64,000 nt of DNA, taken from positions 1,364,001-1,428,000 of the forward strand of contig OZ244870.1 of NCBI GenBank assembly GCA_965221205.1, given 5' to 3'. The notes under the pieces were generated by a model. The model saw only the letters and a list, made by a program, of their open reading frames with translations. It was not told the DNA's origin and did no database searches. Numbering within the stretch: position 1 is the first letter of the stretch; every line of letters begins with the position of its first letter. The translations under genes were made by a program, and so were the position numbers. Positions 18,783 through 62,588 of this stretch are shown here, one piece after another. The stretch is from CBDFMG01 sp965221205 [NCBI: bacterium]. GTDB taxonomy: Bacteria > SM23-31.

Positions 18783-19602
18783 TTACCTTCGGTCGTTTGA
18801 AGCTTCTGTGCTGCCCGAGTCCTTTAACACTTTCCTGATAAAATACTCGTCAACCTGTGCCAATGCAGCGTGATAATCGAGTTCATCAAGGACCGAAGGA
18901 GGATTTTTCGAAACAATATAAGGAAACACTTCTGTTGATAGTTCATCCTGCGGAGACATCTCAAGCATTGATTTAATCACATTTCTGAGTTCGTCTGAGT
19001 TCGGTTGTATTACCGGACCAGTCATAGGCAATCATAGATTGAAAAAGCTCGTCGGAGACAGATGGAATATCGTCAAGATTGAGACTGTCCACGGTTTTTC
19101 TCAAATAATAATCAAATAAAAGTGGTATATCGCTTTTTCTCTTACGGATGGGTGCTATTTCAATTTCAAATTGATTGATGAGAGAAAACAGATGGTGGTT
19201 AAATATCGCAGAATCTCTCAATCTCCGATTATCGCTCTCAGCAATAATCCGGACTCCCTGTGGTTTTTTCTGCGGTGAAAATTCATACACCCGTTTTGTA
19301 ACCGTGAGAAGATTAAAGAGCTGTATCTGTCGGGGAGCAGGAAGATGATCTGCTTTTTTTAGAAAGAGTGTTCCCTGCCAGGCACTATTAAAGATATTCT
19401 GAAATTGTTCTTCCGACCCATGTTCATCTTCAAGGCTAAGCTGAGAACAATCCAGATCAATGAACACATCGTGTTTTTTGAGGGTTTTCCGGTGAATCTC
19501 AAAAGCGGTGGTATCTTTTTTGGCGCCTTGTTCACCATATAGATTAACATGGAGCTTAGTTAGGGCTGTTTTGCGGATTCGTCGGCGGACATCACGCGTC
19601 AA
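18783..19602 (-). pseudogene. Sigma-54-activator-like AAA+ protein, frameshifted and degenerate
   Basis: Reading leftward, the sequence follows the AAA+ domain of NtrC-type activators: LYGEQGAKKDTTAFEIH in the Walker A position, GTLFLKKADHLPAPRQIQLFNLL in the Walker B position, IAPIRKRKSDIPLLFDYYL, and YDWSGNTTELR. Both nucleotide motifs are altered (no GxxGxGK, and KKA in place of DE). At 18984-19003 an exact 10-bp tandem duplication shifts the frame inside TTELR/NVIKSM; removing one unit restores TTELRNVIKSMLEM. The tail (LAQVDEYFIRKVLKDSGSTEA) stops before a complete Fis-type helix-turn-helix. No receiver domain or clear start is seen, so it is a remnant or a non-catalytic derivative. Confidence 0.6.
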
Positions 19603-19757
19603 AATGGATGGTTGCCGATTATTTTATGTTCATCGTGTGCCATAAGGGTACTTTTGAACAATAAGGTACGGCTTCATTCGTATATTTCAAGTAAAAATGA
19701 AAATATTATACGAAATTTAAATATTTTTATTTATTAATTGAGGAAAAATTCTCAAGT

Positions 19758-20462
19758 ATGTTGATGACATCAGCGATTTTACAGAAATTGAATCGTGTCC
19801 GCAATGCGGTCATTGAATACACCTATCCCGATGTATGTTTTGTATGTAATAACTATGCGGAAATGGCTACTATTTTAGTATGTGGTAAATGCTGGGATAA
19901 GCTATTGCGCAACAGCAAATATACGGTGACAACCGGAGAAAAACACATTTCAGGTAAAAGATACTTCTCTTTTCTATCCTGGCGGTTTTCATATAACGAC
20001 AAAGTCCGAAGACTCATTCATTATTTTAAATTTGATAATTATCTGTTTCTAGCAGACCGAATCGGTGAAGAAATGGCGGATACTGCAAATCACATTCTTG
20101 GATTACAGCTGGCAAACCTGATCGTTCCGGTACCTCTTCATCCTGCTCGTAAACGTGAACGTGGTTTCGATCAAAGCATGCTGCTTGCAGAGGTTGTTGC
20201 GCGGATTACAGAAATACCTCTTGAAGAAAGTCTGGAAAGAATAAAATATTCTCCTCCACAGGCCTCAATGAAAGAGAGCCGTGAGAAGGAAAGGAATGTC
20301 CGTGGAATTATCAAAGAAAAACAAAATAATTCCCTCAAAGGGAGGAGAGTCATACTTATCGATGATTTATTTACCACAGGTGCCACAGCGAATGAATGTA
20401 GCAAAATACTAAAAAAAGCCGGCGCATCGGAAGTAATGGTTTTAACTGCAGCATATGCATAA
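19758..20462 (+). CDS. comFC: ComF-family phosphoribosyltransferase-like protein
   Basis: A 234-residue protein with the ComFC plan: an N-terminal four-cysteine zinc finger (CFVCNNY then CGKCWDKLL) and a C-terminal PRTase fold with VILIDDLFTTGATANECSKILKKAGA as the PRPP-binding loop. VPVPLHPARKRERGFDQSMLLA is the family's hallmark middle block. ComF proteins take part in natural DNA uptake in some bacteria; a ComEA-like gene at 27986-28423 is consistent with that. A GAGG lies 13 bases before ATG 19758. A short GC-paired hairpin follows the stop at 20465-20483. Confidence 0.88.
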   Translation: MLMTSAILQKLNRVRNAVIEYTYPDVCFVCNNYAEMATILVCGKCWDKLLRNSKYTVTTGEKHISGKRYFSFLSWRFSYNDKVRRLIHYFKFDNYLFLADRIGEEMADTANHILGLQLANLIVPVPLHPARKRERGFDQSMLLAEVVARITEIPLEESLERIKYSPPQASMKESREKERNVRGIIKEKQNNSLKGRRVILIDDLFTTGATANECSKILKKAGASEVMVLTAAYA

Positions 20463-20464
20463 TT

Positions 20465-20483
20465 GGATTGAAAATAGCAATCC
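20465..20483 (+). terminator. Weak terminator-like hairpin after comFC
   Basis: Perfect 6-bp arms GGATTG / CAATCC with a seven-base loop immediately after the comFC stop, followed by a T-rich but interrupted tract. Termination strength is doubtful. Confidence 0.45.
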
Positions 20484-20581
20484 TTAATTTTACAGTATTA
20501 CTATGAGACGTAATACATCGTAATAATTCAAATTGTATTTACTAGGATATGTAGAAATCTTGCAGTTAGAACAGGCAATGT

Positions 20582-20971
20582 TTAGGAATTGTCAGACTCT
20601 TTTGGTTCTTTGTGGGAAGCAAATTCTTCAATTTCTCTGATAAGATCGACATTGCCAAGTTCACCTTCGTATTTAAAAATTTCGCCTATGTGAATGTTAA
20701 AATCCTTCTGGTATAGGACCAAATCCTTCACCTGTTTCCGTGTGAGAACATTTAAATCAATAGCAATTTCACCAAATTTTTTGTTCGTATTTTCTTGCTG
20801 CTGGAGAATTCTCTGTACCTTTTGAGCCGTCAACATTTTCTGTTTTATTGCTAATTCTCCGATTTGTTTATTCGTTTCCTGCTGCACATGACGAGCAACC
20901 AGAATATCTTTTTCGGATATTAGGCCCTTCTTGCGCAAATATTCACCAAACAACAATGGTTTTCTCCCCAT
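20582..20971 (-). CDS. Small protein with GspE/MshE N-terminal-like repeats
   Basis: A 129-residue cytoplasmic protein made of short helical units: FGEYLRKKGLISEKDILVARHVQ, IGELAIKQKMLTAQKVQRILQQQ, FGEIAIDLNVLTRKQVKDLVLYQ and a weaker fourth unit. The phrase '(L/F/I)GE....g.(I/L)t..q......Q' is typical of the MshEN/GspE N-terminal domain, which in type II secretion and type IV pilus ATPases can bind cyclic di-GMP. There is no ATPase domain here. It may be a free-standing adaptor or c-di-GMP-responsive protein. It is transcribed opposite to both neighbours. Confidence 0.65.
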   Translation of the reverse strand: MGRKPLLFGEYLRKKGLISEKDILVARHVQQETNKQIGELAIKQKMLTAQKVQRILQQQENTNKKFGEIAIDLNVLTRKQVKDLVLYQKDFNIHIGEIFKYEGELGNVDLIREIEEFASHKEPKESDNS

Positions 20972-21382
20972 AACAATCCAATCAAGGTTGAGTTATCTTT
21001 AATGTGTACTATACTCACATATGTGTGAGCATTGAAGTATATAATAATAGATCGAAACGGAGAATTAGCCCGTTTTCATACTATCAAATGTGTTGAGTAA
21101 TTTATTAGGATGGTTATCCTCGCCCAAACTTTGTTCAACAACAAAGGATTTGTAAAGAGGAAGACAATCTTAAATAAAACAAAATTTCTTTTAATTGCAA
21201 GAATTATTTTACAGATTCAAGAAAATAATAGGTTTCATGAAAAGATATACTTTTTTTGTCTTCTATTTTAATTTGATTTATTTAATTGTTTTTATACATT
21301 GAAAACAGGCCAGTTTAGCCCGATATTGCAACTTATCAATTTTAATGTGGATGTTTACGAGTAATGCTTAAGGAAGAGAGAA
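20972..21382. other. AT-rich intergenic region, no gene seen
   Basis: About 410 bases between divergently transcribed genes (small MshEN-like protein leftward, shikimate kinase rightward). It should hold both promoters. I see only A/T tracts and no persuasive operator, RNA gene or ORF. Confidence 0.4.
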
Positions 21383-21928
21383 TTGACAAATAAAAGCAAA
21401 ATTATATTCCTGACCGGATTTATGGGATCAGGAAAATCGACTATCGGCCCACCGCTGGCAAAGGATTTAGGATTTGATTTTTTTGATATTGATGCGATTA
21501 TCGAACAATCTGCCGGAAAGTCGATTCCCGAGATTTTCCAGCAAGAAGGTGAATCGCTTTTCAGGGCGCTTGAAAAACAGGTGCTATTAGAGTGTGTTGA
21601 TAAAAGTAATTGTGTTATTTCGCTTGGCGGGGGAACACTGATTGATCCTGAGAATGTAGATACTGTAAAGCAAAGCGGATTGCTTATTTATCTTTCTACA
21701 AAGCCCAACAGCATCTGGGATAGGGTCAAAAAATCCAATATACGTCCGCTGCTCCAAAAATCCGATGGCTCACTGCTCAGCGAAAGCGAAGCCCTTCATC
21801 TCATAGAACAACTGCTTGTAATACGTCAAAAGGGATATAACAATGCGGATGTTGCTATTCCAACGGATGGTAAAAGTATCGATAACGTGCTACGGCAGCT
21901 TCACAACCATATTACAGACATAATGTAA
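21383..21928 (+). CDS. aroK: Shikimate kinase
   Basis: ATP-dependent phosphorylation of shikimate to shikimate-3-phosphate in aromatic amino acid synthesis. The 181-residue protein has Walker A GFMGSGKST near residue 12, the DxD-type motif FDIDAIIE, the shikimate-binding GGGT in ISLGGGTLIDP and an arginine in NIRPLL. I accept the TTG start at 21383 because AGGAAGAGAG lies just upstream and the family N-terminus begins within a few residues of the Walker motif. Cytoplasmic; no other aro gene is adjacent. Confidence 0.93.
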   Translation: MTNKSKIIFLTGFMGSGKSTIGPPLAKDLGFDFFDIDAIIEQSAGKSIPEIFQQEGESLFRALEKQVLLECVDKSNCVISLGGGTLIDPENVDTVKQSGLLIYLSTKPNSIWDRVKKSNIRPLLQKSDGSLLSESEALHLIEQLLVIRQKGYNNADVAIPTDGKSIDNVLRQLHNHITDIM

Positions 21929-22078
21929 ACGTACTATTCAATTCTTTTCATCGATTGATAGTACGATTCATATATATCGTTTACAGAAATATCCTTGCAT
22001 TACATTGAAAATTGGATTCAGGTAAAGCACCCTCTCAGAATACTAACCTATCTATTATATTAACTATTCGAGGTTCGT

Positions 22079-22888
22079 ATGTACATTCCCTTAAAAGGTT
22101 GCAGAAAAAGGCTGTTGCACTATACTGCAATAACGATTATATGTGCTTTTTTGCTGACGCTGCTGCTCAGAGTACAGCAAATGTGAATAAGCCGATACAG
22201 AATCAACTTTAGAATCGTTTACCGGCTGGTATTTCAGATATAGTGATTCCCCAATAGATGTTTCTGTTCGTGCAGTTGCCAAACTAAAACCATTGTTGAA
22301 GAAAGCGAGTGGCGAACAAGAAAAGATTCAACAATCTCTGAACATACTTGAAGAAAATAACAAAGTGACAGTGATTGCAGATAAGCGGATTGCGAAAATT
22401 GTCAAAAGTCCGAAAAGTTTTACCAGACTTGATGAAGCTGATGTGCAAAAAGTTGATCTCCATGAAGGAATTGAGAATACGGTCACTCTTTTGCAGCACG
22501 GATTAAAAAACAAAATTGAAATCTATTATGAATTCGGTACATTGCCACCCATCACTTGCTACCCGAACCAGTTGAATCAGATTTTTATGAATCTCCTCAA
22601 AAGTGCAATACAGACTATTGACAATGAAGGACTGATTACCATTACAATGTGGACTGAAAATGTATCTGTATTCATCCGAATATCCGACAGTGGCAAAGGT
22701 ATTCCGCAGGATACAATACCAAAAATTTTCGATCCGGATTTTACACAAAAAAGTGTCTGGGTCGGAACCGGTCCGGGGCTTTCAGTGTGTACAATATAAT
22801 TCGGAAACATAATGGTTCGACCCATGTTGGGAGCACTGTAGGGAAGGGGAGTGAATTTACTATTGCTCTGCCTGTTGAACTAGTATAA
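22079..22888 (+). pseudogene. Sensor histidine kinase remnant (HATPase domain), frameshifted
   Basis: A short membrane-segment start at ATG 22079 (RLLHYTAITIICAFLLTLLLRV) runs into TGA. A second frame from about 22200 then carries KRIAKIVKSPKSFTRLDEADVQKVDLHEGIENTVTLLQ, CYPNQLNQIFMNLLKSA (N box) and ISDSGKGIP (G1 box), matching NtrB-like histidine kinases. Near 22789 a one-base loss breaks SVC-YNIIRKHNG; the restored frame ends VGKGSEFTIALPVELV at TAA 22886-22888. No H-box with a phospho-accepting histidine is seen, and most of the sensor region is missing. It is presumably inactive. No response regulator lies next to it. Confidence 0.65.
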
Positions 22889-22895
22889 ATAAAGT

Positions 22896-22936
22896 TAAAA
22901 AAAGTACCGGAAATGGTAACTCCGGCACTTTTTTGT
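22896..22936. terminator. Bidirectional terminator between kinase remnant and aspC
   Basis: A-rich left flank, stem AGTACCGGA / TCCGGCACT (one mismatch) and a T6 run on the right. It lies between convergent genes and is usable in both directions. Confidence 0.75.
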
Positions 22937-22960
22937 GTAATTTTAGCACGTTAATTGTGC

Positions 22961-24154: not shown

Positions 24155-24186
24155 AATACTGTCAACCTTTCATTCAAGAATATCAA

Positions 24187-24669
24187 TTACATAGCGCTGA
24201 ATTTTTCTTTAAGGAGCCCTTCCACTAAGGGAGAGACAAAATTAGATACATCTCCTCCGAATCTGGCAATTTCACGAACAATTGTCGAGTTCAGATAGGT
24301 GTACTTTTCATTCGGCATAAGAAAAACAGTAACGATTTCATCTTTTAGCCGCCTGTTCATAAGTGCCATCTGCATTTCATATTCAAAATCTGTTACGGCA
24401 CGCAGCCCCCGAATGATTGTCTGTGCACGTTTTTGCTCCGCATAGTCAACAAGAAGACCGGAAAATGCGTCAACTTCAACATGATTAAATTGCTTTGTTA
24501 TATCACTTATATGTTTGATCCGTTCATCAACCGAAAAAAAAGGTGTTTTCGTAATATTTTCAGCTACAGCGACTATTACCTTGCTGAATATGTCCGCTGC
24601 ACGCTCAATAATATCAAGATGGCCGTAAGTAATCGGATCAAAAGATCCGGGATAAATTGCTGTTGTCAC
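24187..24669 (-). CDS. coaD: Phosphopantetheine adenylyltransferase
   Basis: Penultimate step of coenzyme A synthesis: 4'-phosphopantetheine plus ATP gives dephospho-CoA. The 160-residue protein has the nucleotidyltransferase motif YPGSFDPITYGHLDII (the TxGH site), the central RGLRAVTDFEYEMQMALMNR and the C-terminal LNSTIVREIARFGGDVSNFV. Its ATG overlaps the stop of rsmD by four bases, implying translational coupling. rsmD-coaD adjacency is widely conserved in bacteria. Confidence 0.96.
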   Translation of the reverse strand: MTTAIYPGSFDPITYGHLDIIERAADIFSKVIVAVAENITKTPFFSVDERIKHISDITKQFNHVEVDAFSGLLVDYAEQKRAQTIIRGLRAVTDFEYEMQMALMNRRLKDEIVTVFLMPNEKYTYLNSTIVREIARFGGDVSNFVSPLVEGLLKEKFSAM

Positions 24670-25217: not shown

Positions 25218-25224
25218 TACTTCA

Positions 25225-26112: not shown

Positions 26113-26141
26113 ATCATAAAAATGTATGTGCTGTCATGCGC

Positions 26142-27089: not shown

Positions 27090-27095
27090 GAATAA

Positions 27096-29534: not shown

Positions 29535-29544
29535 AACGGTCTTA

Positions 29545-30144: not shown

Positions 30145-30179
30145 TAATTCACAATGCTTGCAAAATACAAGCTATACTA

Positions 30180-32028: not shown

Positions 32029-32030
32029 AA

Positions 32031-32687: not shown

Positions 32688-32696
32688 AGTAAAATT

Positions 32697-39986: not shown

Positions 39987-40169
39987 ATAGTTAGGAACTT
40001 TTACGCCACGCCTTCGGTCGAATCAGCAAACGATACTGTTGTGATGACCGGCGGATCGTTGACCTTTCGCGCTGGGGTGGATGAGGCGGCGAAGATCGCC
40101 CGTGAGCTGCGGGAGGTCTCATCAAAAACCGCTCAACACTGCGGAATCGTGATCGTGCAAAAGCGATAG
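39987..40169 (+). pseudogene. Possible short coding remnant at the start of the GC-rich island
   Basis: A 60-codon open stretch with good codon character reads SLTFRAGVDEAAKIARELREV and ends QHCGIVIVQKR at TAG 40167-40169. There is no start with a ribosome-binding site and I do not recognise the family. Base composition changes abruptly from AT-rich to GC-rich near 39960, so it is probably the tail of a gene brought in with the island. Confidence 0.35.
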
Positions 40170-40244
40170 CACCCCGGAGCTTCAAAGGCCAAGTGCGGTG
40201 ACACCTGAATATATCGAAGCGCTCTCGGAGCTTTAGGGACAAAC

Positions 40245-42931
40245 ATGACGGGGACAATGATTTCAGATTACTTAATGAAGAAGGCGCAAGAGCTTCCCAG
40301 CGGCGCGCACTTCTACCGCTGCGCCTTGCAGGTAAACCCTTTCGCCTATTTGATCCGGTACAAAAAGCAAACGTCGTTCCAAAGTGAGGCGGAGTATAAC
40401 GCGGCGATCATTGACGCGTGCCAGGAGGCGGAAATCAAGGTTATCGGTGTTACGGATCACTACCGGTTCGATGAATCGAAGGGCCTCTGGTCAAGGCGGC
40501 CCGCGATGCCGGGCTGTTCGCCTTCAGCGGCTTCGAGGCCGTCACCAAGGACGGCGTGCATTTTCTGTGCCTGTTCGATCCCGACAAGGACGATATACTC
40601 GAACGGTTCATTGGCGACTGCGAAGTTTATGATACGAAAGCGGCCTCGCCGACGGGAAGGTTCGATTCTACTGAACTGCTCGTCCAGGTGAAAAAGTGGG
40701 GTTCGGTCTGCGTGGCAGCACATGTCGCGGCCGAGGGAGGGCTTTTGAAAAAGCTCAATGGGCAGCCTCGCGCCAATGCGTGGAAGTCACCGGACCTACT
40801 AGCCTGCGCCCTTACCGGTCCGATTGCGGATGCGCCGGAAAACATCCGGCCTATTCTTGAGAACAAGGACGCGGCACACAGGCGCAACCGTCCTGTGGCC
40901 GTGATAAACGCCTCGAATGTGAACAGCCCCGAGGACCTGAAAAAGGAAGGAGCATTCTGTTTCGTCAAGATGTCGAGCATCTCCGTCGAAGGCTTGCGGC
41001 AGGCCTTCCTTGACCCTGAATCGCGGATCCATCTCAAGAGCGATCCGCAACCGGAACCGCACGCGGAGTTTCTGGCGGTGACGTGGGAAGGTGGGTTCCT
41101 CAGCGATACATCCGTTCACTTCAACGGCAATCTGAATGTCCTGGTCGGCGGGAGAGGAACAGGTAAATCGACAATGATCGAGAGCATGCGCTATGCGCTT
41201 GGGCTGGATCCGCTCGGAGAAGAGGCTCGCAAGGCCCATGAAGGTGTTATCCGGCATGTGCTTCGCTCCGGAACCAAAGCCTCCTTGCTGGTGCGATCGC
41301 ATAAGCCTTCCGAGCGGTACTATACTATCGAGCGATCGGTCCCGAATCCGCCGATCGTGAAGGACGAAACCGGGGCAGTTCTGACGCTCTCGCCGAAGGA
41401 CGTGATGCCGGGTGCGGAGGTCTTCGGACAACACGAGATATCGGAACTCACCAAAAGCCGGGAAAAGCTGACACTGCTGCTGGAGCGGTTTGTTGACAGC
41501 GATCCAACACTGTCGGGGCGAAAGTTGAAGCTCAAGCTCGAGCTCGAACACTCGCGAAGCCGTATCATGGAGGTGCTCCGCGAGATGAAAGCTCTCGACG
41601 AGCGACTTGCGGCCCTTCCGGCTCTGGAAGAGACACAAAAGCGTTTCCAGGAAGCCGGGCTTGAAGAACGTCTGAAAGAGAGGAGCCTCGTCATTCGGGA
41701 AGAGCGCGTATTCGTGAGTGTCGGCGAACGACTTGATCCTGTCCGCACGCTCCACAGGGAATTGGTCGAGATGCTTCCCTTTGATGCCGCCTTCGTCTCC
41801 CCAAAGGCTTTGGAGGGACTCCCGAATGCGGCTATCTTGGAGAGGGTCGGATCGATTCTGTGGATGCTGAGCTCGAAGCTCAAGGCGATCCGCCGATCAG
41901 CTCGCCAAAGCGTTAGCGGAAGCGGACAGCGCTGTTGCCGGAACGAAAGCCCGATGGGAGAAGAAACGGGAAGTCATCGAAGACACCTATGAGAAGCTCC
42001 TGCGGGAGCTTCAGAAATCGAAGATCGACGGAGCCGAGTTCATCCGTCTGCGAAAGCAGCTTGAAGAGCTTCGACCGTTGCGGGAAAAGAAAGAGGACCT
42101 GAAGCGTTACTTAGCCAGTCACGAGAAGCACCGCCGCAAGCTGCTTGTCGAATGGGAGGACACCAAGGCAAGCGAGCATCGTGAGTTTCGAAGTGCGGCG
42201 AAGAAAGTTTCTCGCAAGCTCGGGGATCGGGTTCAGGTGGAAGTTACCATGGCGGGAAATCGTGATGCCGCTCGAGCGGCTCTTACGCAAGGTCGGGGGA
42301 AACCTGAGCGCCGCTCTGGAGCGGCTGCGTTCGCTGGACCAACTTTCGCTGCCGGACTTGGCGCAGTGCTGCCGTGAAGGGAAAGAGGCGCTGATGAAGA
42401 AATACTTCTTGCCGACAGGTTCGGCCGAGCGAATTACGCAAGCAGGCCCGGCCCTGTTCATGAGAATTGAGGAGTTGGACCTTCCGGCCGGCGACGACAA
42501 AGATCGAATTGAACACAGCACCGGACGGCGAGCCGTCCTCGTGGCAGACGTTGGAAACGCTATCGACCGGCCAGAAGGCAACGGCTGTGTTGCTCCTTCT
42601 GCTGTTGGAGTCTGAAGCCCCGCTTGTTGTCGATCAGCCGGAAGACGACCTCGACAATCGGTTCATTACCGAGGGCGTGGTGCCGATTATGCGGCAGGAG
42701 AAACGCCGTCGGCAATTCGTCTTTTCGACCCACAACGCGAACATTCCAGTCCTCGGCGATGCGGAGTTGATCTTGGGCCTGGCGTCGGGAGAGGTTGGGG
42801 AAGGACATGCCAGAATAGCTACCAAGCATATGGGTTCAATTGACTCCAGACCGGTCCGCGAGCTGGTGGAAGAGATCCTCGAAGGGGGCAAGGATGCCTT
42901 CGAGATGCGGCGTTCCAAGTACGGGTTCTGA
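40245..42931 (+). pseudogene. TrlF-like PHP-domain plus ABC/SMC-type ATPase, frameshifted
   Basis: Five segments in different frames join into one protein of about 890 residues. The N-terminal PHP domain includes GAHFYRCALQVNPF and VIGVTDHYRF, then AFSGFEAVTKDGVHFLCLFD. A P-loop ATPase follows with Walker A VGGRGTGKST (about 41150), a long coiled coil, and at the end LSTGQKATAVLLLLLLES, Walker B VVDQPEDDLDNRF and FVFSTHNANIPVLGDAE. Breaks lie near 40495, 41893, 42268 and 42490, each a single-base change. GC content is much higher than in the surrounding genes. TrlF-family ATPases occur in defence-gene neighbourhoods; this copy cannot make a full protein. Confidence 0.75.
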
Positions 42932-42934
42932 ATT

Positions 42935-44138
42935 ATGCCAATGCTCACCGAACTACTGGAGACCATTAGCAACGGAGAAAACTCCGGGGTCGAGTTTAAG
43001 CGAGACACACTGCAAAACTACGATCTTGCAAAAGAGCTGGTCGCCTTCTCGAACCTTGGGGGCGGGATGGTGCTTCTTGGCGTGGAGGATGACGGAAGCA
43101 TATCGGGCATCACCAGAGATAACCTCGAAGAATGGGTAATAACCACATGCCGGGACAAGATCAGACCGGCCATCATCCCCTTCTTTGAGATTGTTCGCAA
43201 CGTCGAGCCGGGAAAGAACGTGGCAATTGTCCGTGTGACACGCGGCTACGACGTTCACAGCCTCTGGCACAGCAACAGCAGAAAGTATCACATCAGGGTA
43301 GGAACGCAGAGCAGGGAAGCGACTCCGGAAGAGCTGGGGCGGCTTTTCCAGCAACGGGGAACGGTCCGCGCTGAATTGCTGCCGGTCTCAGGATCGACTG
43401 TTGACGACTTGGACCGGCGACGACTTCGGGATTATTTTGTCCGTATTCGTCAACAGGACGTGCCCACTGACGCGGATGAAGCGGCCTGGATATCCCTTCT
43501 TGTAAACACGGAGATCATGACGGAGGATGGTGTCACCGTTAGCGGGATGCTCTTGTTTGGCACGACACCAAACCGTTTTCTTCCCCAGGCCGGCATTGAC
43601 GCTGCAGCTTTCCCCGGAACGGGAAAAGACTATGCGGCGCGCGAACGCATGGCGCTCCGTGGCCCGATGACCACCTTGATCTCCGCAAATGGCGCTATCG
43701 TGGAAAACGGCCTGGTTGAACAGGCACTAGGGTTTGTGCTCCGGAATACCCCGGTGACGGCTGTCCTCGAAAACGGGAGAAGAGTCGAAAAGCCTGCCTA
43801 TCCTCAAGAGGTGATCCGAGAGGCAGTTGTCAACGCGCTCATCCATCGCGACTACCTTCTCTCCAGCACGGATATCGAACTGGCCGTGTACAGCAATCGG
43901 CTGGAAATCGTTTCACCTGGACGGCTTTCAAACGGTATTACACGCCGGAACGGATGCGCGCAGGGACACGATCTGCCCGAAATCAGCTCCTGAAGGATGT
44001 CATGCGGGACTACGGTTATCTGGAGCACATGGGGTGGGAATTCCGCTAAAGATCATCGCAGGGATGCAGAAGCACAACAATACAACGCCTGAACTGATTG
44101 AAGACCAGGAACGCTTCATCCTGCGCGTGCGGACATGA
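42935..44138 (+). pseudogene. AlbA_2/Schlafen-type ATP-binding protein (RecG-like annotation), frameshifted
   Basis: An N-terminal AlbA_2 domain (ENSGVEFKRDTLQNYDLAKELVAFSNLGGGMVLLGVEDDG) is followed by a GHKL-type region with YPQEVIREAVVNALIHRDYLL and IELAVYSNRLEIVSPGRLSNGIT. The first frame fails near 43942. Correcting one base gives PERMRAGTRSARNQLLKDVMRDYGYLEHMG, and a second correction near 44033 gives MGIPLKIIAGMQKHNN, ending at TGA 44136-44138. It starts three bases after the TrlF-like gene. Such proteins are often labelled ATP-dependent helicase-like transcriptional regulators and are frequent in defence islands. Confidence 0.72.
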
Positions 44139-44294
44139 CGGAGGTTCGTCAGATGGAGGATGCATTCCACCTCATCGAGGAAGATCTCATCTTGTGGTTG
44201 GCGATGTGCTGGGCGATCTCGAGATCACCGATTCGCTGCTGTCCCGACGCAGGTTGGACACGTGACTCCGCAACCGGATTAAGGAGCTAACACA

Positions 44295-45803
44295 ATGAAT
44301 AGAAAGTTTAAGAGATATGCAGAAAAGACCTACCCCCCCCCTCGAAAAATTAAATCTTCATTCAAGAACGATTTTCTGCCGCGATAATTTGCCGGTTCTG
44401 CGGGGCATTAACAGCAATTCCATAGACCTGATTTACTTAGACCCTCCGTGACCCTCCGTTTAATAAAGGACGTAATTTCCATTTGCTCCTATTGGCACAA
44501 CCGCAGAAGGGGCTGATTTCAGGGATATATGGTCGCCAGACGAAGTTAAGGACGAGTGGCATAATCAGATAAATGATCGCTTTCCCGAGTTATACAAATA
44601 CCTCAATGCCGTTGGAGATATCGGAAGCAGGTCAGCAAAATATTATCTGATTTATATGGGGGTAAGGCTTATCGAGATGAAACGAGTGTTGAAGGATACC
44701 GGAAGTCTGTATCTACATTGCGACCCGACCGTTTCGCATTATCTAAAATTGTTGTTGGATACAATTTTCGGACATGCGCAGTTCAGGTCCGAAATTTCAT
44801 GGAAACGCACTTTTTCGCACAATGACAGTCGAACGTTTGGAAATGTTCGGGATGTAATTCTGTTTTACGGAAATTCGGACATAAACACCGGTTCCGTTCG
44901 GGTTCCTTTGAATAACGAGTATGTCCAAAAATTCTATCGTTACGAAGATTCCGTAGGACGCTATGCGGCTATCGATTTAACAGGGCAGGGACGTCGGTAG
45001 GGGAAAGTGGCAACCCGTGGAGAGGCATTAATCCTGGTGATGTGGGAAGGCAGTGGTCCGTTCCGTTGACAGGCAATTACGCCACGTGGATCGAGGAAAA
45101 CATTATACCGGGATACAGATCTATCGGGAGGCCACAGGAACGACTGGACGCACTTGATAACGTTGGGATGATTCACCAATCCAGAACGGGACGGAGAGTA
45201 CCGAGCCTCAAACGTTACCTCAAAGCCGCACAGGGTCAGGTTCCTTCTAACTCATGGGACGATATAAACGCTGTGCAGTCTCATTCCAAAGAACGCACCG
45301 GTTATCCTACGCAAAAACCACTTGCCCTGTTAGCGCGGATAATAAAAGCCAGTTCAAACCCGGGCGACATAGTGCTAGATCCGTTTTGTGGTTGTGCAAC
45401 AACCTGTATTGCTGCTGAAAAACTTGAAAGGCAGTGGATTGGAATTGACGTTTCAAAAAAAGCATACGACTTGGTGATAGAGCGGCTTAAGAAGGAAGTT
45501 CCTCCAGACTTGTTCAGGGGAAAGCCTATTTTCAGAACGGATAGACCGACAAGAAACGATGTGCTCTATAAGAAAGTTCCGACAAAGGAAGACAGGTTTT
45601 ATCTATACGGAAAACAAAACGGCACGTGTTGCGGCTGCAATACCCAGTTTGAAATACAGCATCTTGAAATAGATCATATAGTTCCCCGTTCACAAGGTGG
45701 AGGTAGTGAGCGTGAAAACCTTCAACTACTCTGTGGTCATTGTAATCGTACAAAAGGCGACCGCCCAATGGAATATCTAATGGCACGACTTAAAGTCGCT
45801 TAA
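44295..45803 (+). pseudogene. Site-specific DNA methyltransferase with C-terminal HNH domain, out of frame at a poly-C tract
   Basis: A strong AAGGAG precedes ATG 44295. Thirteen codons later a C9 tract (44333-44341) throws the frame out; C7 or C10 would restore it (TYPP-LEKLNLHSRTIFCRDNLPVL). The catalytic motif YLDPPF is then interrupted by an exact 10-bp duplication (44440-44459). Further one-base losses lie near 44480 and 44985. Beyond that the protein is clear: SLYLHCDPTVSHYLK, TGYPTQKPLALLARIIKASS, motif I LDPFCGCATTCIAAE, and a C-terminal HNH domain (CCGCNTQFEIQHLEIDHIVPRSQGGG ... LLCGHCNRTKGDRP). It belongs to the type III Mod-like beta class. Currently unable to give a full protein. 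Confidence 0.75.
44333..44341 (+). repeat. C9 homopolymer tract at the 5' end of the methyltransferase gene
   Basis: Nine consecutive cytosines 38 bases after the ATG. With nine, translation stops two codons later; with seven or ten, it enters the methyltransferase frame. Such tracts in mod genes are known phase-variation switches. Confidence 0.8.
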
Positions 45804-45828
45804 ATCCTTTCATTAAAATAAGGACAAA

Positions 45829-46442
45829 TCCATACCGACACGTTTAAGGAACAACTCAAATCTGTCATCAGTGAGTATGAATCAGCTGCATCAGACACAA
45901 TCTCCAACATGCAAATTATTGAAAGAATTGCTGGCCGAAATTCTGTTTATTTTAAACAGGTCATGAGAATTGATAAGGACAAGGAGTTCTCTAAGAAATT
46001 TAACATGATATCAATGAGTTCGGAAGAGGCTTACATATATAACACAATTTATATGATGGTGCACTATCTCGCCACATCGATTTCGTTCGAAAACAGGGGG
46101 CTTGCAGCGCCCGGCAGTATCGATTCTGTTCCGGTGTCTGCAGATAAAGAGGATTATAACTCAAATGGCATGTGGAGCGCACGTAAAGCTTGGAAAATTA
46201 TCGAAAACGCTGAGCGGATTATTGCAGTTGAACTGTTATGCGCCGCTCAGGCTGTCGATTTCCACAGCGAGTACAAGCCGGGAAAAGGAACACAAGCGGC
46301 GTATAATGTGATTCGGTCAAAAGTGAAAATGCTGAAACAAGACCGAATAATCGGTAAAAATATTCAATCTGTCATCGGTCTAATCCGGACTGGCAATCTG
46401 GTAGAGGCTGTAGAAAAGTCTGTTGGAAAATTGTCGCTTTAG
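45829..46442 (+). pseudogene. Aromatic amino acid ammonia-lyase (HutH/PAL-type), C-terminal remnant
   Basis: About 204 codons matching the C-terminal third of histidine/phenylalanine ammonia-lyases: SIDSVPVSADKEDYNSNGMWSARKAWKIIENAERIIAVELLCAAQAVDF and GKGTQAAYNVIRSKVKML. Family proteins have about 500 residues, and the MIO-forming Ala-Ser-Gly site lies in the missing part, so this fragment is inactive. The frame opens after TAA at 45826, with no upstream continuation; the preceding gene is the HNH methyltransferase. A 177-codon reading from ATG 45909 remains open but is not expected to work alone. Confidence 0.72.
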
Positions 46443-46475
46443 AGATCAATTTATTCTATATAAGAAGTTGTGATA

Positions 46476-47465
46476 ATGGCAGGGAATATGAGAAACTGTT
46501 TTCGATTCACATTACTTTTTTCAGCAGTGCTAAGCGTTTTCTTCGTGATAGTTGCTTGCAACGGTGGCACAATATCGGAAAGTGAACACGCAGCCGTTCC
46601 AGTCGAAACGGGATCGCTCGATGTGAAATGGATTCATGGTTCCGATCCGTGTTCCGGGAATACCGGTCCACAGTTTCAAGTGCACCGATATGCGGCAAAC
46701 ACCTATATACTCCGTCAGAACAAATGCGATTCTCGCCATGCACCATTCAGCTATTTGCTGTTTGGTGAGGAAAGAGCAATCCTTTTCGATACCGGTGCTG
46801 AGCTGGATTCAGGTGGAGGCAACAACGGATTGAAAAAAGTTGTGGAGGATATATTTGCTGAATGGAGTGCGGAACAGGGAAGAGCAATACCGCCGTTGAC
46901 AGTGGCACATTATCATGGCCACTTCGACCATTTCTACGCCGATCCTGAGTTTAGAGCTGATGAAAATACAATTGTTGTCGGTACAGGCCCAGAAAATGTC
47001 GAGAAGTTTTTCGGTATTACCGATTGGCCTAATAAAACAGTTTTTTATGATCTCGGAAACCGGAGTTTGACCGTTATTCCAATCCCCGGCCACACGGAAG
47101 ACAGTATTACGATATACGATCCATGGACACACTTTCTGCTGACTGGTGATTCGGTCTATCCGGGAACGCTTTTTATTCCGGACTGGATGTCATTCAAACA
47201 GAGTATCAACAAACTGGCTTCGTTTGCCAATGAGCATCCGATATCGTATATACTCGGCACCCATATTGAGATGACCACAACACCAGACCAGGATTATAGC
47301 GGAACCTATGAACCGAATGAACATGCGCTGCAACTCGGTGTTGAGCACCTTTGGGAACTGCGTGATTCACTCGAAGCGTTAGGTGATACGCCGATAAAAA
47401 AGATACACGATGATTTTATCATTTTCCCGCGCATATTTGACGAGGATGCATCCGGCCAAAATTAA
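46476..47465 (+). CDS. MBL-fold metallo-hydrolase lipoprotein
   Basis: A 329-residue exported protein. The signal peptide ends in a lipobox with Cys28 (VFFVIVAC), so it is probably a membrane-anchored lipoprotein. The metallo-beta-lactamase motif is VAHYHGHFDHF (HxHxDH), followed by IPIPGHTEDSI and LLTGDSVYPGTLF, giving a dinuclear metal site; a late histidine is in LGTHIEMT. The substrate is unknown; many such proteins are lactonases, thiolesterases or phosphodiesterases. I use ATG 46476 rather than GTG 46470. Its last 37 bases are the beginning of a 158-bp repeat shared with 50632-50789. Confidence 0.88.
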   Translation: MAGNMRNCFRFTLLFSAVLSVFFVIVACNGGTISESEHAAVPVETGSLDVKWIHGSDPCSGNTGPQFQVHRYAANTYILRQNKCDSRHAPFSYLLFGEERAILFDTGAELDSGGGNNGLKKVVEDIFAEWSAEQGRAIPPLTVAHYHGHFDHFYADPEFRADENTIVVGTGPENVEKFFGITDWPNKTVFYDLGNRSLTVIPIPGHTEDSITIYDPWTHFLLTGDSVYPGTLFIPDWMSFKQSINKLASFANEHPISYILGTHIEMTTTPDQDYSGTYEPNEHALQLGVEHLWELRDSLEALGDTPIKKIHDDFIIFPRIFDEDASGQN

Positions 47466-47586
47466 TTAAGTAAAAAATGACTATAATCCAGGTTGTATGT
47501 TATTTCATTTTTGTGTATCTTTGAGATGTGAAAGCGGTAATGCCGGGGTGGTGAAATTGGTAGACGCGCTGGACTCAAAATCCAGT
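47429..47586 (+). repeat. Direct repeat copy 1: end of the MBL gene to the tRNA-Leu anticodon stem
   Basis: 158 bp that recur at 50632-50789 with four substitutions by my count. The block covers the last codons of the MBL gene, the spacer and the 5' half of tRNA-Leu. Similarity falls sharply in the tRNA variable arm and resumes patchily after both tRNAs (for example ATTCCCACCATAAAG). Confidence 0.92.
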
Positions 47587-47625
47587 AGGCTTCGGTCCGT
47601 GAGGGTTCGAGTTCCTCCCTCGGCA
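47542..47625 (+). tRNA. tRNA-Leu (anticodon CAA), copy 1
   Basis: 84-nt class II tRNA. Acceptor GCCGGGG pairs with CCTCGGC (one G-U), discriminator A. The anticodon stem CTGGA/TCCAG encloses loop CTCAAAA, giving anticodon CAA for codon UUG. The T arm is GAGGG-TTCGAGT-TCCTC, with one G-U pair. The variable arm is weaker than in copy 2. No CCA is encoded. Confidence 0.92.
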
Positions 47626-48190
47626 CTGTAGTAAAAACAAGGACTTACAAGGATTGTTTATGAGTCCTATAAATGTCTGAAGATTTTACTCCCACCGCTA
47701 TTCCCACCATAAAGCACATGTTTTGAGTGGCTTCATTAAATTAATTTGGTCTATTTATAGGATGATTTTGATGTGACCATTGCCCGACGTACCATTTCAT
47801 TCCCAGAACCATATTTCACATTTATAATCCCTCGCTAAAATATCCGAAAAATTTATGAAATATATAGATTTTGCTTATGTGTAAAGTAAACTTTCCACCT
47901 GGAGAGTTCTCACTTTATTAAAATCTCGCCTCAAACCTAATTCCTATCCCATTCGAAGAATATCGTCCTTGCAGGTAATTAAAGTTTGAATTGTTGTCTA
48001 TGTATTAGGCAGGTGGAGAGTTATCTGGAAAGGTAATTTACGGAAAGATGTGAGTAAAAATCGCTTATAGAAATTAAGAGATGCATTTTGCTTTATAAGT
48101 ATTTTCTGCTCCCCGGGTGGGACGATGTTAGAACTTTTTTCAAGGATAAAAAGGAAGATATCCAAATCCCAGCTTTTGATCTTCCAGCCT
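47626..48190. other. Non-coding stretch after tRNA-Leu copy 1
   Basis: About 565 bases with no supported gene. The first 150 resemble the region after the second tRNA (50829-51000) in patches, including ATTCCCACCATAAAG and ACGACGTACCATTTCAT-like segments, so the duplication once extended beyond the tRNA. The remainder is AT-rich and featureless to my eye. Confidence 0.5.
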
Positions 48191-48192
48191 CA

Positions 48193-48404: not shown

Positions 48405-50078
48405 CTAATTTTTGGAGGGGATCGGCTGGTCGCCCCAGTGGCGTTGTGCATCCAAGATGATCTGTTCGTATCTGGTGCGCGCTACTTCGTAGTTCGCCAG
48501 TACCTCCTGTTGAGCGGCGGTGGATGGAAAGCGATCCGGTTGAGAACGGGCGATATCGGCCAGTATTTGAGTCCAGCGTAGCATGTAGGTTGCATCTTGG
48601 GCAAACGCTGTCGGCTTTTCATCTACCGATAGATAAACCGGGCTGGTGTGTGCTTGGCGGAGTAAGCCGTCCGGGGCCCGATAGAGCGCGCGGGCGGCAA
48701 TCCAGCCGCTTCTTTTCGGATACAGTTCGTAGGTTAGCGTCTGTCGTAAGATCGGTGCAGGTTTTTGATCGAGCAGGCTCAGCGAGGCAACGACGCGACC
48801 GTTGTGAACGAGTTGGAGCGATTCCAACGCTTCAATCGAACGCAGGGTTGCAATGAATTGAATGGGGCTGGTGTCCGATGACGTTCTGGAGATCATTGTT
48901 CCCGGGCCCTGGCTGTCAGCATCCAGGGTCAGCATGGGCCCCGTGGTGACGAAGGAACGTCCGGCCTTGATCGAGTCCCACATTTTCTCTGCCGTCAACG
49001 GTCCGTTAATTCTGGCATAGACGCGGTTATGGCCGGTCGGTACCGGCATCACGCCGATGGCCGAGCCGCCGGAGACGCCTAGGCGAAAGCCGCAATTCAA
49101 GAAGCGGTAATACAGATTGTTCGTGCGATGGAACAAACCGTCGCCGACAGCAGCATTGGACTCACCCGCCGACAGCGGTCCGATCATGCCCCAGCCACCC
49201 ACCAAGGTTGACCTGCGATGGTAGTGGTTGTGGCAGACTTGAATGGTGTTGAGCACCCCCAGCGCCGCACCGATGACGGTCTCTGCCCATGATGGTTTGT
49301 CGCTGTCGAATACAACGCCCGGTGACTGGGTTCGCGCGGTTCGGCAAAGCGCGGCGTCAGTGGGAAAATGCTCCCCGAATTGCTTGGTGGTGATGGGGCT
49401 GTCCAGGTTGAACAGAAATGTCGCGCCGATAGTCCAGCCGGGTGCGGCGTTGCGATCGATGCGTTCGATTTCGATGTTGTTTCGCGTGATGAGGTGGCGG
49501 TCGTCGATGACGATCGGCGCTGTGTAGGTTTCATCCGGCCACGTTGCGTGCCACGATTCCTCCCGTCCTCGCAGCCAGTAGGTGAATGCCGGCACGAGAT
49601 GCACGTCGTCGGCCAGCGCCAGTTGTTGAAGGATGTGAGGATTGTTCTGTCCCAGATGCACGTGCAGATCGGCTGAATACCAGCCTTCGGACGGCAAATC
49701 GATCCAGCGCTTCAGCTGAATGGTATTCTCGATCGTTTCGCCGGCTTTCAGGGTGAATGCAAGGTCTACCGGAGTGTATTCTTTCCCTTTTTCAACATGC
49801 ACCACCGCATTTCCGGCCGGCACCTCCATTGTGAAAACGCCATCGCAGCTAAAGCTTTGATCTTCGGCGTAGACCGTCGCCGTCTGCGGCGCTATTGGTT
49901 GGAAAAAACGCTGGCTGTCAACATCGATCCATGCGCGAGCCGGGGTTGTATTACCGCTTTCGTCGACAATCCGGATTGAGATGCGGGCCAGTATCTTGAA
50001 CGGATCGGATTGACCGCATGTAACAAGGATAGAGCAGCAAAATAAAATCGCAAATAGTAATGAGGACAATTTATTCAC
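48405..50078 (-). CDS. CehA/McbA-family metallohydrolase lipoprotein (PHP-like)
   Basis: A 557-residue exported protein, clearly GC-richer than its surroundings. GTG 50078 has a perfect AAAGGAGG eight bases upstream. The signal peptide ends in a lipobox with Cys21 (SILVTC). An N-terminal carbohydrate-binding-like beta domain (about 30-120) precedes GWYSADLHVHLGQNN, the metal-binding start of the CehA/McbA PHP domain; VCHNHYHRR and VSGGSAIGV lie further on. CehA and McbA hydrolyse carbaryl, but most homologues have unknown substrates. It lies between two tRNA-Leu copies and is followed by an attC-like hairpin, which suggests arrival as a gene cassette. Confidence 0.83.
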   Translation of the reverse strand: MNKLSSLLFAILFCCSILVTCGQSDPFKILARISIRIVDESGNTTPARAWIDVDSQRFFQPIAPQTATVYAEDQSFSCDGVFTMEVPAGNAVVHVEKGKEYTPVDLAFTLKAGETIENTIQLKRWIDLPSEGWYSADLHVHLGQNNPHILQQLALADDVHLVPAFTYWLRGREESWHATWPDETYTAPIVIDDRHLITRNNIEIERIDRNAAPGWTIGATFLFNLDSPITTKQFGEHFPTDAALCRTARTQSPGVVFDSDKPSWAETVIGAALGVLNTIQVCHNHYHRRSTLVGGWGMIGPLSAGESNAAVGDGLFHRTNNLYYRFLNCGFRLGVSGGSAIGVMPVPTGHNRVYARINGPLTAEKMWDSIKAGRSFVTTGPMLTLDADSQGPGTMISRTSSDTSPIQFIATLRSIEALESLQLVHNGRVVASLSLLDQKPAPILRQTLTYELYPKRSGWIAARALYRAPDGLLRQAHTSPVYLSVDEKPTAFAQDATYMLRWTQILADIARSQPDRFPSTAAQQEVLANYEVARTRYEQIILDAQRHWGDQPIPSKN

Positions 50079-50453: not shown

Positions 50454-50635
50454 TTTTGAAAACACAACCCTTCAAAAATAATTTATGCACCATCACTAAC
50501 GGGTAGTTGGGAAACCATACTACCTTACGCGGCAATAGCCACACCATCAGTTTATAAAGTCGATAGCCGGCAATTCGTTGTGGTTGTCGCAGGCGGCGGC
50601 AAAGGCCTATACTCAGCACCTCAACCTTCCGGCGC
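50454..50635 (+). pseudogene. PQQ-dependent dehydrogenase C-terminal remnant
   Basis: About 60 codons reading [22 protein letters not shown], then [20 protein letters not shown]. This is the last beta-propeller blade of membrane/quinoprotein glucose dehydrogenases (family form 'LP.gg.AtP.tYevdGrQYvviaAGGg'). Just where the family would end, the sequence switches to the second copy of the MBL/tRNA repeat. It is a truncated piece stranded at a recombination joint. Confidence 0.6.
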
Positions 50636-50789
50636 ATATTTGACGAGGATGCATCCGGCAAAAATTAATCAAGTAAAAAATGACTATAATCCGGGTTGCA
50701 TGTTATTTCATTTTTGTGTATCTTTGAGATGTGAAAGCGGTAATGCCGGGGTGGTGAAATTGGTAGACGCGCTGGACTCAAAATCCAGT
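50632..50789 (+). repeat. Direct repeat copy 2: truncated MBL end plus 5' half of tRNA-Leu
   Basis: Second copy of the 158-bp block at 47429-47586, with four substitutions. It retains the last codons of the MBL gene ([15 protein letters not shown]) without the rest of that gene, so this copy is the derived side of a duplication or recombination event. Confidence 0.92.
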
Positions 50790-50828
50790 GGGAGCAATCC
50801 CGTGAGGGTTCGAGTCCCTCCTCCGGCA
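50745..50828 (+). tRNA. tRNA-Leu (anticodon CAA), copy 2
   Basis: 84-nt class II tRNA. Acceptor GCCGGGG pairs with CTCCGGC, discriminator A. Anticodon loop CTCAAAA gives CAA. The variable arm GGGA-GCAA-TCCC and T arm GAGGG-TTCGAGT-CCCTC are perfectly paired, so this copy looks the more canonical of the two. CCA is not encoded. Confidence 0.94.
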
Positions 50829-51140
50829 CTATAATAAAAAAGGACCTATAATGTTGAATTGTAAGTCCTTGTTTGTGTCCAATATTTTATTCCCACCATA
50901 AAGTACATATTTTAAGTAGTTTCATTGAATCCTATTGATCAATCTTAATTTGTATGACACTGGTGTGAGTATTTCACGACGTACCATTTCATCCAATGAG
51001 GATGATTACTTAATGCCATTTTTTGAAATGATGGATAATTTAGATAGGATATTAAAGCAGGATATAGTAAACAATGCACAGATTTTTTAATTCGACATGA
51101 GTATCATATCTAATTTGAGAATGATCAGCAAATAAATTAC
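50829..51140. other. Non-coding stretch after tRNA-Leu copy 2
   Basis: About 310 bases without a supported gene. Parts match the 3' flank of tRNA copy 1 (TATTCCCACCATAAAG and CGACGTACCATTTCAT segments). The remainder is AT-rich. Confidence 0.5.
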
Positions 51141-55739: not shown

Positions 55740-55832
55740 GTTTTTCCAAATAAATTTGTTTGTTCAGTTATAGTTAATAATATTCACTCTTATTATGAGA
55801 ATCTGTAACATTTTCCTTGAGGATATATTTTG

Positions 55833-57245: not shown

Positions 57246-57265
57246 TTAAATATTGTTCACTTTCG

Positions 57266-58390: not shown

Positions 58391-58415
58391 GAAAAGTCCG
58401 AAAAGTCATTAATTA

Positions 58416-59399
58416 CTATAATATGTTTTTATACCAATCGATAGTCTTTTTAAGTCCTTCTTCAAGTGCAACTTTGGGACTATATTCGAGCATCTGTTGA
58501 GCTTTTGATATATCAGGTACACGAAGTTGAACATCGATACCCATATGGTCATTAAATTCAATCTCTGAATCGGATTCGAGATAATTAATAATTTTCTTAG
58601 CCAATTCAAAAATAGTAACCGTTGCCTGTGGATTACCGATATTGAATGAGTTACCTGTAATTTTAACGGAACAAATACTACTTTCAACAGCATCTACAAA
58701 ATCATCGATATAACACCAAGATCTGATCTGGACACCGTCTCCCGTTATTACAACATTTTCATTTGCAAGCGCATTGTTGGTAAATATCTGGATTGCGCCC
58801 TCTCCAACCTGACCGGGCCCATAAATATTGAATGGCCGCATTGCAACCATTGGAATTTTTTTCTCAAGAAAGAAGCAATAACAGAGCTTCTCAGCCGCAA
58901 GTTTACTGATAGAATACGTCCATCGAGCATCTTTTATATCACCTTGGATGGTTTCTCCATGTTCAGATGCTCGAAAGATATGTGGACCATAAATCTCACT
59001 TGTGGAGAAATATATTAACAACTCAAGATCGATCTCTTTAAGAATACTGAGTAGATTAAAGGTACCGATCATATTAACTTCCATGGTCTTAAGTGGCATC
59101 TTGTAATAAGAAGAAACACCAGCTATTGCTGCGGCGTGGATAACAATGTCAACATTCTTAATTGATTTCTTCAAATGTTCCACATCAAGAATATCACCTT
59201 CGATAACAGTCACATTCTCATGGTCTTTACAGTCAAAATATTGTAATGCGTTCCGGTGTCTGTTGTCATATAGTATGACCTTATTATCTTTGTGAAACCG
59301 CTCGCAGAGTGCGGTGCCAATAAATCCTGCGCCTCCGGTAATGAAAATCACTTTATCTTTCACTTTCACGATGCTGGCCCTCTCTTCTTTAACTATCAA
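58416..59399 (-). CDS. NAD-dependent nucleotide-sugar epimerase/dehydratase (extended SDR)
   Basis: A 327-residue extended short-chain dehydrogenase. It has NAD motif ITGGAGFIGTALCERF, VIHAAAIAGVSSYY, catalytic serine/threonine in YFSTSEIYGPH, the Tyr-x3-Lys pair in WTYSISKLAAEKLCY and FNIYGPGQVGEGAIQIFTNNAL. Family members convert UDP- or dTDP-sugars. It is the first gene of the sugar operon. The initial twelve residues are weakly supported, and an internal start near VKDKVIFITGG is possible. Confidence 0.9.
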   Translation of the reverse strand: MIVKEERASIVKVKDKVIFITGGAGFIGTALCERFHKDNKVILYDNRHRNALQYFDCKDHENVTVIEGDILDVEHLKKSIKNVDIVIHAAAIAGVSSYYKMPLKTMEVNMIGTFNLLSILKEIDLELLIYFSTSEIYGPHIFRASEHGETIQGDIKDARWTYSISKLAAEKLCYCFFLEKKIPMVAMRPFNIYGPGQVGEGAIQIFTNNALANENVVITGDGVQIRSWCYIDDFVDAVESSICSVKITGNSFNIGNPQATVTIFELAKKIINYLESDSEIEFNDHMGIDVQLRVPDISKAQQMLEYSPKVALEEGLKKTIDWYKNIL

Positions 59400-60032
59400 T
59401 GATCATTTCCGCAAAGAGTATACTAAAATCATGATGTTTAACTATCGGATTTACACTTGCTGCTCTTTAGATTTGAAACAATGAGTCCAATTGATTAATA
59501 TAACGAATATTCAAGCAATCTACAAAAATTATTTCTCTTGCTAAATTCGCTGGAGAATATTGGTCTCGAATACAAAAAACTAGCAGCTTGACCGCAGATT
59601 GTCGTTTATTTGGTTTTTGTCGTAAACTTTTTTTATTCTGACTGAAAAATCTGCTGAACGAAAAAGTTTTAAGAACTCCATCTGCTATTATAGCCAGTCG
59701 ACATGTCATTCAACGAACACGAAGACCAATATTTATTATTTTGTGACCATGAGCAGGCAATTGCCACCGAACGTGGAGTCGAGTATTTATATCCGCCACA
59801 AAAGGAGCTTATTCTCATTAAATAAATTCGCAAATCGTACAGTCTGGAGAACAGAAAATTCTTTGAAAAGCTAAATGAATCCTTTAATTTCAACTTATAG
59901 TGTCCGACTTGTTCTGACGACATACATCATATTTCTTGCACACTCCCAATTATTCTCTTTCAGAAGTTTAATATGGGGAATATCAGATAAATCAAATAAT
60001 AATAACACTTCAAAGAAAACTTTGGAGGAGGA
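59400..60032. other. Intergenic stretch with a 50-bp dispersed repeat, no gene seen
   Basis: No supported gene in about 630 bases. The segment at 59940-59990 (CACTCCCAATTATTCTCTTT and following) resembles 62823-62875 in the same orientation, so the two copies bracket the broken glycosidase gene. On the minus strand both could encode a tail reading SDIPHI followed by KEN, perhaps the end of a decayed gene. A 40-codon frame at 59704 is unsupported. Confidence 0.4.
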
Positions 60033-62588
60033 GTGTTTATGTGCATAAATAGCAAAATATTTGTTGCGTTCAGAATTCTTTTTATTCCCGTATTGCTCTC
60101 AATTTTTGTGATAAATGTTTTTGCCCAGAGAGGAGCTGGAACCAGTGTGTCATTAGAATATGATACCACATCACCGCAGTTATCCTTCGCAGCCGGAGAG
60201 AGATCGGTAGAACACTTGAACACCCGGGATATTCCATCCTAATGGATAGTGCTGACACAAGAATCGCGCTGACTACCGATTCGCGGTTTTTGCAGCCTCA
60301 ACATTACCGGATCCGTTACGAGCAGTCGGATGTTCTTCGTGTAACTGGTGGCGATGCGGTGAGTACGATGTACGGAGGCGTGGAACTTGAGGAGATGCTT
60401 CAGCTTGGCACGGATCTATCCGACATTCCGCAACGCGAAGGCAAACCGTTTATTCTCAAAAAAGGTCTCAAATTCAATATGCTCTTCGATACCCGGGTAC
60501 CGAGTTATGACGATACTGGCGATGCCGCTCAAAAGAATATTGTGGAAATGTGGAATTTCGATTTCTGGCGGGAATTCCTGGACGACATGGCTCGACACCG
60601 GTATAACTTTTTGACTCTCTGGTCGACCAATCTCTATCCCACACTTGTGAAGTTGGAGAACTATCCTGATGTAGCCTATGATGACGTGAGCGTCCTCGAT
60701 TTCCCGATTGATAACGAAACCCATTCGCACTGGACCAACACTGCCTGCAGCGACTATGACATTATGGATCCCGCCAGTCGCGTGTGGTCAAGAGCATAAC
60801 CATTGATGAAAAAATCGCTTTCTGGCAGCGTGTCATGCAGTATGCCGCCGACCGAGGCATTGATATTTATTTTTTTCCTGGAATATCTTTATGTGGAACG
60901 CACTTGATAAATACGGGATTGATAATCGGCAAGATAATCAAAAAACCGTGGCATACCTGCGGGAGAGTGTTAAAGAGTTGCTCCTGACGTATCCTCTCCT
61001 CAAAGGGATCGGTGTGTCGACCGGCGAGAACATGGACCGGAGACTGACGGGGGAGTATAGCAATGAGAACTGGATTTGGAAGACGTACGGTTTTGGGGGT
61101 TATGGATGCCAAGGCCGTTCAGCCCGACCGGCATGTGCGTTTCATTTTCCGCCAACTCGATTGCACTTTAGCGAATATTGACACGGCTTTCGAAGAATAC
61201 ACGGATGTGCTTGAGACGAGTTTTAAATATTCGCGCGCCCGGATCTATACAACCACTAATCCACAATTCTTCGATCAAGGGTATCGCGACGACGTTGAAC
61301 AGTACCAAATAAAGTTCTGGATAAATCTTCGGAACGACGATATTTTCGTCCATTGCTGGGGTAATCCCGAACATGTGAGGAAATTTCTGGACAATCTACC
61401 CCACGATGTAATGGCCGGGTTTTACATGGGGTCGGACGGATATGTGTGGGCACGGGAATTTATTAGTCTCGATTCCGAGCAGTTCCGCCAATTTGAAATT
61501 CGGAAACACTGGTACAATTTCATGCTATTGGGTCGTCTTGCTTACGATCTCACCCTGGGCCGCACCTTTTTCGAAGACAAACTGGTTGATCAATTCCCCG
61601 GTGTCGATGCATCGCTGCTGTACGATACCTGGAAGACTTCATCCGAGATCATTCCACAGCTCAACCGTTTCTATTGGTTCGGGAATGATAGACAATGGTC
61701 CCCGGAAGCTAGTCTCGATATGCATAATAAATTTCACAGCGTCAATCGATTCATCGATTATAGGCGGAGTGATGACAGCATTCTTCCGAACCAGTTTGGC
61801 AGTCTGACATTCAGGCAATATGTGGAATCCATTACCTCCGGTACAGACATCTCTGGTGTGACTCCACTCCAAGTTGCCTTGAATCTGGATCCGTTTCGCC
61901 GAGCAGGCGCTTGCAGGTGTTTCTACCCTCAGGAAGACAAGAATAATTCCAAAGAACTTGAGCAGACCTTTACAGATATCGAATCGATGTTCCACCTTGG
62001 GCAATATTATGCCGACAAAATCCGTGGAGCCGTGGAACTGGCACTTTTTCGTATTACCAATGATCACACAGCAGCGACAGGCAGTTCGAGCACTGGAAGC
62101 AGCGGTTGACACATTGGAAATCATACGCCACTGCCGCCAGCAATCAGTATAAGCCGCAACTGCTTGCTACAACACAGCAGCTTGACTGGTGGAAGATCAT
62201 GGAAGATGTCGAAATGGACGTCATTATTGCAAAAGAGAACATTCAGCTTTGGTCTGGGGCTCCTCTATTAAGATCTCTTGAAACTGAATTTCAACCGAAA
62301 TGGGAAGAATTAAAAGATACATTGACTAAAAATAAAATCGAAGAATTTGCTATCGATATAGAAAAGCTTGGCATAGAATATAGATATTTCCAATTAACGC
62401 AATGGGGAAAGAAACTTGCAGCTCAGGCAGGTAGAGGTCCGACATTGATGCCATGTCGAAAACTCTGGAGAGGTTTCCGAATCCGATCAAGGAACATCAA
62501 GGAACTTAAAGACAAAAGGTATGCCGAATACATCCGCGGTATGATCAGGAATAATGTGTTTTTCTTCTGGAAAATCTATATATTTTAA
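60033..62588 (+). pseudogene. Secreted glycoside-hydrolase-like protein (alpha-glucuronidase type), multiply frameshifted
   Basis: An N-terminal signal segment (LFIPVLLSIFVINVFAQ) is followed by pieces in several frames. One reads FWREFLDDMARHRYNFLTLWSTNLYPTLVKLENYPDV, a barrel segment seen in GH67-like alpha-glucuronidases and relatives; others read WNALDKYGIDNRQDN, GVSTGENMD, DVMAGFYMGSDGYVWARE and DWWKIMEDVEMDV. Breaks lie near 60195 (GA unit or base change), 60783, 60873, 61085 and 62128. The last 60 codons come from a repeat also present at 62653-62745, so the true end is probably near 62410. Family assignment is tentative; inactivity is clear. Confidence 0.62.
62415..62516 (+). repeat. 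Direct repeat A, containing a 10-bp tandem duplication
   Basis: About 90 bp shared with 62653-62745 (CTTGCAG(C/T)TCAGGCAGGTAG through TTAAAGACAAA). Copy A carries ATCAAGGAAC twice in tandem at 62486-62505, whereas copy B carries it once. Confidence 0.9.

Follow-up and report, generated by a model that had tools for sequence, protein, structure and literature searches.

Three exact tandem duplications of a 10-bp unit were present in the window (the whole 64-kb stretch of DNA analysed here), which exceeds the number expected by chance (3 versus about 0.02). All three had been reported by a first-pass annotation, and each was found again at its coordinates when the window was re-read (Table 1). 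Every site consisted of two copies of the unit and no more, and the repeat match could not be extended past 10 bp. No other exact primitive tandem duplication with a unit of 9–40 bp occurred in the whole window.

Table 1. Positions of the three duplications and of the genes and repeats that contain them.
Feature	Position	Strand	Details
Site 1, TCTGAGTTCG twice	18984-19003		minus-strand unit CGAACTCAGA; lid region of the sigma-54-activator-like AAA+ gene
Broken AAA+ gene (sigma-54 activator-like) with site 1	18783-19660	-	ORF 18973-19602; Sigma54_activat, 3.1e-12
Site 2, GACCCTCCGT twice	44440-44459	+	within the codons of the DPPF motif
Broken N6/N4 DNA methyltransferase-HNH gene with site 2	44295-45803	+	at least two further frame changes
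Site 3, ATCAAGGAAC twice	62486-62505	+	exact tandem duplication
160-aa ORF, open through the duplication of site 3	62106-62588	+	no family, structure or viral-contig relative found
Repeat copy with site 3	62412-62516	+	alignment to the sister copy
Sister repeat copy, unit present once	62650-62744	+	91% identity over 90 bp

Expectation under chance

Exact primitive tandem duplications with units of 5, 6, 7, 8, 9 and 10 bp numbered 59, 23, 6, 2, 0 and 3 in the window, and none was found for units of 11–40 bp. The corresponding expectations from a third-order Markov model were 58.4, 15.6, 4.4, 1.2, 0.33 and 0.017, the last value representing one event in 60 simulated windows. Only the unit length of 10 bp departed from the model; counts for 5–9 bp were near expectation, with 6 bp somewhat over. 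With a complexity filter, a separate set of 60 simulations gave 0.03 expected 10-bp events versus the 3 observed. Exact, non-extendable 10-bp direct repeats occurred three times with no gap between the copies and 12 times for gaps of 1–60 bp taken together.

Imperfect period-10 copies were considered as older scars and dropped as evidence. Allowing at most one mismatch and applying the complexity filter left 3 period-10 places (0.82 expected), namely the exact duplications of sites 2 and 3 plus a new place (50299). With two mismatches allowed, there were 10 places versus 7.87 expected. An additional low-complexity imperfect period-10 copy was present at 22886-22905. Hairpins were also dropped as a cause, since local folding at the three sites was unremarkable (z of -0.67, 1.71 and -0.11, respectively).

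Comparison with other real DNA

The control comprised 206 loci with 2.57 Mb of distinct sequence, of which 44 were genome-contig loci (0.707 Mb) and 162 were IMG/VR loci (1.866 Mb). The genome-contig loci were those of distant ComF homologues (best local identity 48%). Events with the same flanks were taken once, bases were counted as distinct 31-mers and all 206 loci were included; an earlier count had excluded L045-L047, L134 and L135 because they repeated other loci. Exact 10-bp tandems occurred 14 times in the 2.57 Mb (5 in genome contigs and 9 in IMG/VR loci). After filtering for complex units in about two copies, a filter that all three window sites pass, one match was left (0 and 1, respectively). 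Based on the flags of the earlier count, we take it to be the one in L094, inside a repeat array.

The filtered control counts for units of 7 to 15 bp were 43, 32, 34, 1, 8, 4, 0, 2 and 1, so that there was no peak at 10 bp among the 206 loci and 10 was not a favoured length. No control locus contained two 10-bp tandems, the loci being at most about 21.6 kb long and therefore shorter than the window. The Poisson probability of three or more events was 0.0054 without the filter (mean of 0.35 per 64 kb in the control) and 2.5e-6 with it, or 2.5e-4 when the upper 95% rate is used. These values are optimistic, as both the length and the filter were picked after the data had been seen; two other cautions are the mostly viral make-up of the control and the short length of its loci relative to the window. 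Against this real-DNA control, the window is unusual.

Genes and repeats at the three sites

The single copy looks like the ancestral state at all three sites, as judged from relatives at site 2, a sister repeat at site 3 and a weak continuing domain match at site 1. In the AAA+ gene, the ORF with site 1 matched AAA_lid_14 at profile positions 1-52 (E 8.2e-10), and this match ended at the duplication, as did two solved-structure alignments among those listed. The piece past site 1, in another frame, matched AAA_lid_14 alone at positions 48-79, weakly (E 0.21), and had no solved-structure match. No relatives of the AAA+ gene at site 1 were found in viral contigs. A second break, judged by eye, seems to lie close to the 5' end of the gene.

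In four relatives of the methyltransferase, DPPFN was present once. At this motif, three relatives were four residues shorter than the window, which corresponds to twelve bases rather than ten because another frame change is close by. The first-pass annotation had claimed that removal of one unit restores the protein frame at both sites 1 and 2. At site 1 the claim held, with the lid profile running from 1-52 to the weak match at 48-79 in the other frame. At site 2 it failed beyond a few codons: deletion of one unit restored DPPFNKGRNF only, because the next frame change follows before about 44495. An additional frame change was located between 44982 and 45138. There is perhaps a third, provided that the gene starts at the upstream ATG, at a nine-C run (44333-44341) close to the possible methyltransferase start, where the frame seems to shift; the run could reflect a slip site, phase variation or decay.

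The sister repeat carried the unit of site 3 once, as had been reported, and was placed here at 62650-62744 rather than 62653-62745. The two repeat copies start 238 bp apart and match over 90 bp (62412-62501 and 62650-62739). The earlier statement that two of the three duplications break genes was likewise borne out, sites 1 and 2 being the gene-breaking ones and the ORF at site 3 running open through the duplication. Neither this ORF nor its pieces had a family, structure or viral-contig relative.

The 39 ORFs listed as intact covered 60% of the window, and all three duplications were located outside them. The chance of this for three random sites was 0.064. Our own list of 39 does not include the ORF at site 3, and counting that ORF as intact weakens the figure.

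Origin of the duplications

The three sites may be assembly joins that kept a fixed ten bases, the best reading here although weakly favoured, which accounts for both the fixed length and the adjacency. Ten-base defaults exist in scaffolders and gap-fillers. An assembler or gap-filler would have linked contig ends that are truly adjacent and retained ten bases twice; the doubled bases would be a minimal overlap left unmerged or else a pad of ten bases filled later from reads. We infer this cause from the one length shared by three units with no other unit of 9–40 bp beside them, the exactness of the copies, the single-copy relatives at sites 2 and 3, and the continuing domain at site 1. The flanks belong together according to the relatives at site 2 and the sister repeat at site 3, and less strongly at site 1 (lid positions 1-52, then 48-79). 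Site 3 additionally sits in a 91% repeat, where assemblers may break.

The unmerged 10-base overlap that the first-pass annotation had offered as one explanation fits a published class of error, in which duplicate sequence is left at scaffold joins (PMC7111523). The common trait is an additional copy of a short overlap at adjacent contig ends. The published cases, as described in the part of that source considered here, contain Ns and are given no fixed length, whereas the window has no N and the unit is always ten bases. Also against an assembly origin, the 206 control loci (up to about 21.6 kb each) showed no excess or peak at 10 bp and none had two such tandems, and all three sites are outside the intact ORFs (0.064). 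If the duplications are artefacts, they warn against declaring a gene dead because of a gene-breaking duplication in an uncurated contig until the reads over it have been inspected.

A close rival, possible if somewhat doubtful, is that separate small tandem duplications arose by replication slippage or a similar process in weakly selected DNA and that their equal length is a coincidence. Their position outside intact ORFs and amid gene pieces favours mutations retained under weak selection. Two of the three host genes are broken and have additional frame changes, as seen by homology in the methyltransferase and as judged by eye in the AAA+ gene; the ORF at site 3 is open and had no relatives found. 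Other fragments of genes occur in the window: for an aromatic amino acid lyase the tail alone is present (profile positions 371-465 of 466), and for an AI-2E transporter one piece (positions 222-307 of 327). Bacterial pseudogenes carry small frame-changing indels (PMC2658671), and the trait in common is small frame-changing lesions in genes under loss. However, at least four pseudogene-forming rows in the part of that source considered here were all 1-bp changes, with no 10-bp duplication among them. One length three times is hard to get by slippage, and local folding is no help. The control spectrum makes three tens without any other long unit unlikely, although that control is largely viral and was not chosen for decayed genes.

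The identical length had led the first-pass annotation to suggest a single mechanism. One cause is plausible, because the control shows no preference for 10 bp; nothing found points to a shared biological system, and assembly errors or ordinary decay explain the duplications equally well. No function is implied by the three duplications.

It is unlikely that a process in this bacterium leaves 10-bp duplications genome-wide, retained only where genes are dispensable, through either end-joined element exits or a cutter staggered by a helical turn. If the duplications were real and genome-wide, they would offer a look at a bacterial process that makes scars of fixed length. In titles and abstract openings of the literature searched, no equal 10-bp tandem duplications in bacteria were found.

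Excision scars of a cut-and-paste transposon with 10-bp target duplications, as also proposed in the first-pass annotation, are improbable, and no positive evidence for them emerged. After loss of the element, the ends would have been joined with both target copies kept, giving two exact copies of fixed length at a single-copy site. Some insertion sequence (IS) families make target duplications of about 10 bp. IS target-site duplications have in common with sites 1–3 a direct repeat of fixed length at what appears to be a formerly single-copy site, at site 1 by way of the weak domain match; here, in contrast, nothing is between the copies, and neither inverted ends nor a transposase were found in the parts searched. 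Candidate resident elements that have inverted ends and are flanked by 10-bp repeats were rejected as not above the control (4 versus 5 in the wrong-orientation control, for elements of up to 7 kb in the 64-kb window). Scans of 29 stretches (27 distinct ORFs), which are part of the ORFs of the window, gave no transposase domain. Precise excision in bacteria, moreover, leaves a single copy of the target. Equally improbable are double-strand breaks whose staggered ends, separated by about one helical turn, were filled in and end-joined. Such breaks would give exact 10-bp copies of fixed length without further extension, but by eye no motif is common to the three sites and no precedent was found in the literature searched.

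Other features of the window

A GC-rich stretch at 40–44 kb had 56–58% GC, compared with 42% across the window. This island and its neighbour (40000-46450) contained pieces of an SMC-like ATPase, Schlafen/AlbA, the methyltransferase-HNH gene and the lyase tail. A stretch with tRNA-Leu (anticodon CAA) was present twice, at 47424-47800 and 50627-50992, with 80.6% identity over a 381-bp alignment, and a GC-rich ORF (48405-50078) was located between the two. This arrangement perhaps reflects an old duplication or the integration of an element. The region 17326-18601 contained similarity pieces in three frames, the longest without a Pfam match, and showed weak similarity (33% over 54 aa) to the ORF at 1974-2873.
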